64,000 nt of DNA, from the NCBI GenBank assembly GCA_018902545.1, contig JAHIQM010000020.1, positions 1-64,000 of the forward strand, in the 5' to 3' direction. The stretch is from Pseudomonadota bacterium. Its GTDB lineage: Bacteria > Desulfobacterota > Desulfovibrionia > Desulfovibrionales > Desulfomicrobiaceae. The notes beneath the pieces are model-generated. The model searched no databases. It was not told the origin of the DNA and saw only the letters and a list, made by a program, of their open reading frames with translations. The position numbers were made by a program, and so were the translations under genes. Below are positions 12,146 through 14,636 of the stretch, in pieces; within the stretch, counting starts at the first letter, position 1, and each line of letters opens with the position of its first letter.

Positions 12146-12463
12146 TTAAACGCAGCCGGTGGGCTTGGGCAGGCCGGCCATCTTGCAGGCGCCTTTGCCG
12201 GGGCCGGAGGGGAAAAGTTCGTAGATCTGCTTCAGCTTGTAGCCGGTGGACTTGGAGAGAATACGCACCATGGGGGCGATGCCGTTCTTCTTGTAGTAGT
12301 CCTGCAGGAAGTCCAGGATCTGCTGGTGAGCTTCGGTGATTTCGGAGATGCCTTCGCTTTCCTTGACATACTCGGCCCATTCCGGACCCCAGTCTTCAAA
12401 CTTCAGCAGGAAACCGTCTTCGTCGATTTCGAAATTTCTGCCCTTGAATTCGATAATTGCCAT
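12146..12463 (-). CDS. dsrC: DsrC, sulfur-carrier protein of dissimilatory sulfite reduction
   Basis: This 105-residue DsrC/TusE-family protein carries sulfur as a trisulfide between its two C-terminal cysteines during sulfite reduction by DsrAB; the trisulfide is then reduced by the membrane complex DsrMKJOP. Both cysteines are present in the C-terminal arm (GACKMAGLPKPTGCV): Cys93 and the penultimate Cys104. Having both marks true DsrC rather than TusE-like proteins that keep only the last one. The core, with EFKGRNFEIDEDGFL and EGISEITEAHQQILDFLQ, fits. TAAGGAGG precedes the ATG. As usual in this group the gene is separate from dsrAB. It is expected to be very highly expressed. Confidence 0.97.
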   Translation of the reverse strand: MAIIEFKGRNFEIDEDGFLLKFEDWGPEWAEYVKESEGISEITEAHQQILDFLQDYYKKNGIAPMVRILSKSTGYKLKQIYELFPSGPGKGACKMAGLPKPTGCV

Positions 12464-12531
12464 GCTAAATTCCTCCTTAGATGTTGTTCCTCAAAATTTT
12501 TCCTTCCGGAAAAAGAGTTTGCAAAGACTTT

Positions 12532-12581
12532 CCCCTATGGGGAAGGATTGTTTTTGTCAATCCAACGCGCCATCCTTCCCC
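12532..12581 (-). promoter_or_regulatory. dsrC promoter region with nested inverted repeats
   Basis: On the minus strand a perfect TTGACA -35 (12555-12560) lies inside two nested inverted repeats: GGGGAAGGAT (12539-12548) with ATCCTTCCCC (12572-12581), and GGATTG (12545-12550) with CAATCC (12558-12563). A third hairpin, TTCCCC (12530-12535) / GGGGAA (12539-12544), covers the expected -10 position, where the best hexamer (TAGGGG) is poor. This suggests a regulated promoter whose -10 departs from consensus. The start would be about 65-75 nt upstream of the dsrC ATG. Confidence 0.5.
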
Positions 12582-12662
12582 ACCAAGTCAACACTACCGG
12601 GCTGTCTAGCAGATAGGGGGCTACACTTCAACTGGAAAGACGGAAGTCGGTCTGGATTCCTG

Positions 12663-12833
12663 TTACTTGAAATCCCGGATAATTATCTGCTCCTTGCGCA
12701 TTCTGCACCAGGTGGGGCGTTCGTCTTCCTCGGGGATGGGACGGCGACTGGGCGGTCCGACGTTGCAGACGCGTCGTCCCTCTTCCATGCTCATCAGCGG
12801 ACAATCCGCGCATTTGGTTACGACAAAGATCAT
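12663..12833 (-). CDS. 56-residue Cys-rich protein, probable metal-binding knuckle
   Basis: The short frame runs from ATG 12833 to TAA 12665-12663. The product begins MIFVVTKCADCPLMSM and has four cysteines (8, 11, 23, 43), the first two as CxxC, with a Pro/Arg-rich centre and a C-terminal IIIRDFK. The pattern suggests a small zinc or iron site. GGA lies about 8 nt upstream of the ATG. The gene follows another small Cys-rich gene by 31 bp on the same strand and precedes dsrC, so all three may be co-transcribed in part. I recognise no family. The alternative frame in this stretch has no such ordered Cys pattern and no ribosome-binding site. Confidence 0.55.
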   Translation of the reverse strand: MIFVVTKCADCPLMSMEEGRRVCNVGPPSRRPIPEEDERPTWCRMRKEQIIIRDFK

Positions 12834-12864
12834 GTGTTTTCCGTAGTGGATGAGGGTTTAGGCC

Positions 12865-13083
12865 CTAGACGTCGGCGGGAAGGGGGATTTCCTGGCAGTA
12901 GTCGTCCCACTCCGCGCAGGCCAGGCCGATGGGTTGTTCGTAGCTGGCCTGGCAATGAGCACACAGTATTTTGATGGTTGCGTCGTTGCCGAATGCTTCT
13001 TTCATGGCCTGCTCAGAGTGGCTGGCCTCGGTACGATGGCCGCATTCGGGACAGGTGGCGGAAACGGTGAATTCCTTGGTCAC
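12865..13083 (-). CDS. 72-residue zinc-ribbon-like protein
   Basis: The product carries two CxxC knuckles, CPEC (Cys11, 14) and CAHC (Cys41, 44), about 26 residues apart, the layout of a rubredoxin-like or zinc-ribbon fold binding one metal. No membrane segment is present. It starts at GTG 13083, preceded by GAGGAGGAACTCC; there is no ATG alternative near it. A good promoter lies 40-68 bp upstream. It heads a small unit with the 56-residue Cys-rich protein and lies upstream of dsrC on the same strand. Function unknown. Confidence 0.7.
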   Translation of the reverse strand: MTKEFTVSATCPECGHRTEASHSEQAMKEAFGNDATIKILCAHCQASYEQPIGLACAEWDDYCQEIPLPADV

Positions 13084-13122
13084 GGAGTTCCTCCTCGTGC
13101 TGCTGGTCTATAATGGAAATGT

Positions 13123-13151
13123 ATACTAAGTACTCGGGGCCCGCGCGTCAA
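13123..13151 (-). promoter_or_regulatory. Promoter for the small Cys-rich gene pair
   Basis: On the minus strand TTGACG (13146-13151), a 17-nt spacer and TAGTAT (13123-13128) form a good sigma-70-type promoter, 40 bp before the GTG start at 13083. Confidence 0.5.
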
Positions 13152-13205: not shown

Positions 13206-14636
13206 TTAGAGGTAAGGCGAGAAAAGCCAGAAGAACGCGTCCCGCAGCCGTGCGGGCAGGGAGCGTCCCTGCAATTCCTGCCGGGTTACCGGGCGGCTTT
13301 TGGCCATGATGGAGTTGAAATGCCGCGTCAGTTGGATGGCCAGGTGTTGGTCCAGAACTTCCAGGGTCAACTCGAAATTGAGCCGCAGGCTGCGGCTGTC
13401 CAGGTTGGCCGAGCCGAGATGGACGTAGCATCCGTCCACGAGCATGAGCTTGGTGTGGCAGAAGGGAGCGGGCTGAAAGGAAATTTTGATCCCGGCGCGC
13501 AGCAGGTCCTCAAGGATGTGTCTGGTGGCCCAGTGCACGAAGGGCAGGTTGTTGCGCCCGGGCAGGAGGATTTCGACGTTGACCCCGCGGTACCTTGCGG
13601 ACGTCAGGGCGCTCAGGAGAGTGCGCGGGGGCAGGAAATACGGGGTCATGATCTTGATGCTCGACGTGGAAGCGGAGATGATTCCGGTGAGCAGTGTCAT
13701 CAGGTAATCCTCGGCGAAATTGGGGCCGTCGACAACGGTCCGACACAGGCAGTCGCCCGTGGGTTCGGTGAAGAGCACTGGGGGCTCGAGGCGCTCCTTG
13801 GTGGCGAAGAACCAGTCATCGACAAAGGTGTCCTGAAGCAGGTTCGCCACCGGTCCGCGCACGATGAAGTGCAGGTCGGTGACCGGCCACAGCGGCCTTG
13901 CGCCGAGCACGTGCTTCTGGCTGATGTTCATGCCACCGGTGAAGCCGAGTCTGCCGTCGACGACGAGGATCTTGCGATGATTGCGCAGGTTCAGATGCAG
14001 GTTGGGCGGGAAGAGGTGGGGGGGGATGAAGAGCCTGGTGGGCACCCCCTTTTTTTTGAGCAGGCGCGAGGCGTGTGGCCATGAATACTTCTCGCCCACG
14101 CCATCGATAAGGACGCGCACTTCCACGCCGCGCTGCACCGCCCGGGCCAGGGCGTCGATGAATCTGAGTCCCTGGGTGTCGGTGTCGAGAATGTAGGTGG
14201 CCAGGTAGATGCTGTGCCTGGCCTCGTCCATGGCCCGCAGCATGGCGGGGTAGGCCTCGTCTCCGTTGAACAGGGGCTCGACGCAGTTGCCGCCGACCAG
14301 TTCCGCGCCAAGAATGTTGCGCCCCACGCGTTCAAGGCGCTGGAACGCGTGGTGCAGAACCGTGGGGTTGACGGCGGCGCTGGGGTATGAAGCGGAGGCC
14401 GGGGGGCGGTTTTCGGACAGGGCGTCCACTTCCTTGCGCATGCGCGACGCGCTGCGCCGGACCCGGTTCACACCAAAGAGAATGTAGAGAATGGGGCCAG
14501 CCAGGGGAAATGTCAGGCAGACGGCGACCCATCCCAAGGCCGAGCGGGAATCGCTTTTGCGCAGCAGGGCGTGCCCGGCCGCGCCCAGCGCCAGAACAGC
14601 CAGGAGAACCAGGCCAAGCCAGTTCAGCACGTGCAT
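13206..14636 (-). CDS. cls: Cardiolipin synthase, phospholipase D family
   Basis: This 476-residue inner-membrane enzyme condenses two phosphatidylglycerol molecules into cardiolipin. Two N-terminal membrane segments (about 3-22 and 33-55) precede the two PLD half-sites: HRKILVVDGRLGFTGG and HTKLMLVDGCYVHLGSAN, each with HxKx4D. Both catalytic His/Lys/Asp sets are intact and the length matches bacterial ClsA. AAGGTG lies upstream of the ATG. The gene stands on the same strand as the PAS-protein gene, 45 bp downstream of it, so they may be co-transcribed. Confidence 0.92.
   Translation of the reverse strand: MHVLNWLGLVLLAVLALGAAGHALLRKSDSRSALGWVAVCLTFPLAGPILYILFGVNRVRRSASRMRKEVDALSENRPPASASYPSAAVNPTVLHHAFQRLERVGRNILGAELVGGNCVEPLFNGDEAYPAMLRAMDEARHSIYLATYILDTDTQGLRFIDALARAVQRGVEVRVLIDGVGEKYSWPHASRLLKKKGVPTRLFIPPHLFPPNLHLNLRNHRKILVVDGRLGFTGGMNISQKHVLGARPLWPVTDLHFIVRGPVANLLQDTFVDDWFFATKERLEPPVLFTEPTGDCLCRTVVDGPNFAEDYLMTLLTGIISASTSSIKIMTPYFLPPRTLLSALTSARYRGVNVEILLPGRNNLPFVHWATRHILEDLLRAGIKISFQPAPFCHTKLMLVDGCYVHLGSANLDSRSLRLNFELTLEVLDQHLAIQLTRHFNSIMAKSRPVTRQELQGRSLPARLRDAFFWLFSPYL

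Follow-up and report, generated by a model that had tools for sequence, protein, structure and literature searches.

Two uncharacterised, putatively zinc-binding microproteins encoded in a probable bicistron beside dsrC in Desulfomicrobium

DsrC is a trisulfide carrier between DsrAB and DsrMKJOP (PMC10504309; PMC6470260). A literature search returned nothing on dsrC-associated zinc ribbons or small proteins in the organisms considered here, and a dsrC synteny study (PMC10504309), when its text was searched, did not mention the term 'small protein'. Other described systems comparable to the proteins at the locus are the generic zinc ribbons, including the Pfam Zn_ribbon_4/MJ0042 type, CpXC, YnfU and NCBIfam NF038384, and the small zinc-binding proteins. 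Two proteins of 72 and 56 residues (p72 and p56) are encoded beside dsrC in the window, the whole 64,000-nucleotide stretch of DNA analysed here: p72 shares with the generic ribbons the CPxC(G)...CxxC knuckles and the strand pattern, although its scores against those families all lie under the curated cut-offs and it adds an invariant C-terminal helix of CxEWDxxC type; p56 has a Cys4 spacing like that of small zinc-binding proteins, but matches no known family.

The source contig of the window belongs to a Desulfomicrobium species, with Desulfomicrobium records as the nearest named relatives at the locus and the top whole-genome matches falling in one genus. The minus strand carries, in order, the cardiolipin synthase gene cls (13206..14636), an upstream neighbour outside the unit; p72 (12865..13083, GTG start at 13083); p56 (12663..12833, ATG start at 12833); and dsrC (12146..12463), encoding a DsrC/TusE family protein with two C-terminal cysteines. 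Past dsrC, malQ and glgB lie on the plus strand. Both reading frames picked out in a preliminary description of the locus, one of 72 residues with two knuckles (CPEC, CAHC) in the direction of dsrC and one of 56 residues with cysteines at positions 8, 11, 23 and 43, are present on the minus strand; their placement directly upstream of dsrC holds for gene order, although 199 bp (139–204 nt in relatives), containing a separate conserved promoter-like element, intervene between p56 and dsrC. The 31-nt gap between p72 and p56 (12834..12864, minus strand) varies from 4 to 39 nt in relatives, a spacing consistent with co-transcription.

Codon comparisons with up to 14 congeners gave a median dN/dS of 0.163 for p72 and 0.144 for p56, with 0.041 for dsrC as a comparison, such that the dN/dS check proposed earlier for the 56-codon frame indicates purifying selection. 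Third codon positions are the most variable in both genes (29/22/59 variable sites per codon position for p72; 31/22/53 for p56). p72 and p56 are genuine conserved genes, as follows from this purifying selection together with invariant cysteines and a promoter kept in most relatives.

The knuckles of p72, CPEC (C11, C14) and CAHC (C41, C44), are invariant in 16 relatives and are flanked in the predicted model (mean pLDDT 75, pTM 0.50) by beta strands at residues 4–10, 17–23, 36–40 and 47–51; by its predicted fold, p72 is a zinc ribbon. The profile searches suggested in the preliminary description yielded weak zinc-ribbon matches for p72 and no known family for p56: all nine p72 members tested weakly match the Zn_ribbon_4 model, while p72 scores 23.8 of 36 bits against YnfU (E 2.4e-05) and 23.7 of 31.2 bits against DUF7351, both under the curated cut-off, and neither p72 nor its relatives receive a Pfam or NCBIfam name above such a cut-off. 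Structural matches to the model are likewise weak (best Foldseek E 0.07). The p72 profile also weakly matches a TFIIS-like RNA polymerase zinc ribbon (1qyp, E 0.0025), raising the alternative that p72 and p56 are regulators, small zinc-ribbon binders of nucleic acids or polymerase that may act on a conserved block between p56 and dsrC. The basic character of p56 (pI 7.7–9.2, computed for relatives) would suit such a role, but p72 is acidic (pI 4.1–5.5, likewise computed for relatives) and its weak matches are to generic zinc ribbons; we regard this alternative as unlikely.

While the two-knuckle description captured the four knuckle cysteines, it overlooked a second invariant pair, C56 and C63, located in the C-terminal CAEWDDYC (CAxWDxYC in the alignment). 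All six cysteines, together with the WD pair, are invariant across 16 diverse aligned relatives. In the model the C-terminal residues 56–64 form a helix and, being seven residues apart within it, C56 and C63 should lie on one face. DsrC/TusE and p72 are products of neighbouring genes, both small and both with two cysteines near the C-terminus; they are unrelated in sequence, however, and the p72 pair sits in a predicted helix, whereas the C-terminal cysteines of DsrC are carried on a flexible arm. Two invariant cysteines beyond the zinc site lend some weight to a different proposal, in which p72, p56 or both act on dissimilatory sulfur metabolism, either by supplying or withdrawing a metal or sulfane sulfur or by reducing a DsrC cysteine, with C56/C63 as the active dithiol, a role that we consider doubtful.

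Relatives of p72 bear on this proposal in both directions. p72 carries the CPxCG, CxxC and CxxWDxxC motifs in order and is a clear member of an unnamed six-cysteine family (CPxCG, CxxC, CxEWDxxC) spread through the Desulfobacterota (L140–L154), yet the tail ExPLPxxV (PLAADV in one variant) is particular to p72 proper; weaker relatives apparently lack the C-terminal tail. Profile matches to p72 were found in 48 of 341 genomes of the phylum, and 45 of these 48 also have a dsrA match, compared with 179 of the 341 overall, counts that take no account of kinship. At the family level, dsrA occurs in 18 of 19 families with p72 versus 54 of approximately 103 (Fisher p ~2e-5), in a tally transcribed by hand from the output in which the figure of 103 is itself estimated and related families are not independent, such that phylogeny confounds the association; dsrA is present in all nine genomes of the sample that encode a full-length six-cysteine protein. 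This near-confinement to dsrA genomes is suggestive, being the sole independent hint of a sulfur role and a modest one, confounded by phylogeny. Against it, dsrC is absent within 6 kb of p72 relatives outside Desulfomicrobium and its sister genus. A common neighbour for the p72 relatives was sought and rejected, a fumarase-like gene recurring at two loci and nothing otherwise. A more specific version of the sulfur proposal, which we rate as quite improbable, would make the p72-like six-cysteine ribbons an overlooked accessory of dissimilatory sulfite reduction, whose C56/C63 dithiol services DsrC or the Dsr complex, with p56 as a lineage-specific partner recruited beside dsrC in the Desulfomicrobiaceae.

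The signature of p56 is C8-x2-C11-P ... C23 ... P-x-W/F-C43 ... E-Q-x-I-x-R53, with C8, C11, C23 and C43 invariant in two alignments, one of 22 sequences and one of 20, spanning three families of Desulfovibrionales, the Desulfomicrobiaceae and two more. The four-cysteine pattern is intact in 43 of the 44 copies collected; the remaining copy, from a draft genome, has a broken frame. There, the frame appears to be interrupted past the second cysteine, near a CCTTTTT run (L082, ~8043; L122, ~7998; one draft genome), probably through a sequencing or assembly error. A moderately confident model (mean pLDDT 82, pTM 0.62) predicts a beta-hairpin between C11 and C23 and a short helix past C43. No family in Pfam, NCBIfam or PHROGs and no PDB sequence matched p56, and a fold search with the model returned no PDB structure of similar shape at a meaningful score. 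In view of these absences, it is the cysteine spacing that underlies a putative assignment to zinc, the C-x2-C...C...C pattern pointing to a structural metal site over a persulfide relay. The C-x2-C-P motif, the C-P-L motif of many members, the four invariant cysteines and the anaerobic hosts might also suggest a small electron-transfer protein with an Fe-S cluster or other metal; ferredoxin and rubredoxin families, however, gave no match to p56 at the sequence or fold level, and we judge this highly improbable.

Proteins composed of two p56 units were observed in two settings: a 115-aa form in four Desulfomicrobium genomes (L067, L068, L069, L071) and a 117-aa form in a genus of another family (g20 of f5; L092, L096, L098). 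Since the lineages bearing these fusions are separate, the duplication probably arose at least twice. Each half retains all four cysteines in both lineages, fitting an autonomous metal-binding unit.

At the locus itself, all 17 relatives examined, drawn from Desulfomicrobium and one further genus of the same family (g3), carry p56 immediately upstream of dsrC, and p72 is also in place at 15 of these 17 loci. Two of the loci (L073, L074) have lost cls, malQ, glgB and mqnE from the vicinity but retain p72-p56-dsrC. The stability of this order through the loss of other neighbours hints that the neighbourhood matters, and is, with the linkage in two genera, a further point in favour of a sulfur-related role. 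Elsewhere the linkage disappears: genera g2 and g4 of the family, like the tested members of families f2 and f5, have p56 and dsrC on separate contigs or at least tens of kb apart, and the two are unlinked in every other genome, and hence every other genus, in which both genes were located. Of 21 genomes checked for dsrC, 20 carry it, and the one without is a draft of 77% completeness. The preliminary description had looked to dsrC synteny across sulfate reducers; this was found at the 17 Desulfomicrobium and sister-genus loci, and in no other Desulfovibrionales genome in which both genes were located. Linkage to dsr genes across sulfate reducers, as expected of a sulfur-relay (Tus/Dsr) protein, is not seen, since p56 is linked to dsrC in Desulfomicrobium and its sister genus alone and p72 relatives elsewhere have no dsrC within 6 kb. 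The association of p56 with dsrC therefore characterises only a portion of a single family.

In f2 p56 follows a lolA-like gene and in f5 it follows priA; these names, together with the dus and lysO-like neighbours of single genomes, were assigned by eye from translations. A shared operon theme was considered for p56 outside Desulfomicrobium and its sister genus and rejected, as the lolA-like, priA and dus/lysO-like contexts have no pathway in common. The presence of p56 in these other operons indicates that it needs no nearby dsrC.

Across the Desulfovibrionales, p56 matches were obtained in 47 of 150 genomes, leaving 103 without, a further point against a general sulfur function. The protein is essentially limited to this one order: one peptide pattern, run against 84,980 species genomes, found none outside it, and 345 genomes of the phylum gave one partial weak match beyond it. 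Weak matches in genus g12 (G016, G111) were rejected on reading, the four-cysteine pattern being absent. An origin from phage or plasmid was also rejected, since searches of viral contigs, phages and plasmids turned up no relative. The preliminary description would have fallen had there been no homologues with conserved cysteines or no relative with dsrC synteny; cysteine-conserved homologues exist for p56 (in three families) and for p72 (across the Desulfobacterota), and synteny exists in relatives.

The 'good promoter' earlier attributed to the unit is a sigma-70-like element, TTGACG-N17-TAGTAT (13123..13151, minus strand), comprising TTGACG at 13151–13146 and TAGTAT at 13128–13123, with 9 of 12 positions matching and conservation in most relatives. 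Most relatives carry the form TTGAC[A/G]-N17-TA ahead of p72, which places the element beyond chance; the sister genus has the variant TTGACA-N17-CTAGGA, and two D. orale-like loci are without it. Upstream of dsrC, a second promoter-like element (12532..12560, minus strand), TTGACA (12560–12555)-N17-TAGGGG, retains TTGACA-N17-TAG in the window and in all 17 relatives. Given the p72-p56 spacing and these conserved promoter-like elements, p72 and p56 probably form a bicistron and dsrC is probably driven by its own promoter, and the separate element at dsrC weighs against a joint sulfur function. No terminator-like site was seen on the minus strand between p56 and dsrC, such that read-through into dsrC is possible.

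Within Desulfomicrobium the dsrC leader (window positions 12464–12560, minus strand) is nearly invariant; it holds a 7-bp hairpin (TTTTTCC/GGAAAAA, 12497–12514), has no match in Rfam, and in the window folds no better than shuffled sequences. Between p56 and the dsrC promoter-like element lies a conserved non-coding block of 34 nt, CTTTCCNGTTGAAGTGTAGNCCCCTATCTGCTAG (12606..12639, minus strand), present in most Desulfomicrobium and as a single copy in the genome. This block offers a possible target for p72 and p56 as regulators; it is missing, however, at the two D. orale-like loci (L073, L074), though both proteins are kept there.

Our favoured interpretation, held with moderate confidence, is that p72 and p56 are small cytoplasmic metal-binding proteins, probably adaptors or regulators, the metal most likely being zinc. 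In Desulfomicrobium and its sister genus, both would be produced beside dsrC from a short bicistron that has a promoter of its own. C11, C14, C41 and C44 of p72 would hold a metal in a zinc-ribbon fold, with C56 and C63 exposed along one side of the C-terminal helix, where they would form a dithiol, free or redox-active, or else a partner-binding surface; C8, C11, C23 and C43 of p56 would hold one metal ion that stabilises a mini-domain, its conserved end W/F-C-x-L/M-R/K-R/K-E-Q-x-I-x-R serving to bind a partner. Zinc, the details of the folds and partner binding we infer; participation in DsrC chemistry would not be obligatory for what are probably small adaptors or regulators. Of the metal- or persulfide-related role raised at the outset, the metal-site cysteine pattern favours the first part, and the co-occurrence of p72 with dsrA, confounded by phylogeny, leaves a hint of a sulfur role; a general link to dsrC is not supported, and a persulfide relay is disfavoured. 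A sulfur or persulfide role is possible and not favoured, because dsrC adjacency does not extend beyond some members of one family and the cysteines of p56 are arranged as in a structural metal site.

The best reading is of two uncharacterised zinc-type microproteins, of putative function, encoded in a probable bicistron beside dsrC. Two unnamed small protein families, p72 and p56, are now defined by testable cysteine signatures. Should the co-occurrence of p72 with dsrA prove functional, a missing small component would be added to a well-studied anaerobic energy pathway; should it not, p72 and p56 would still be targets for annotation, as proteins of 56–72 residues that are unnamed in current family libraries.
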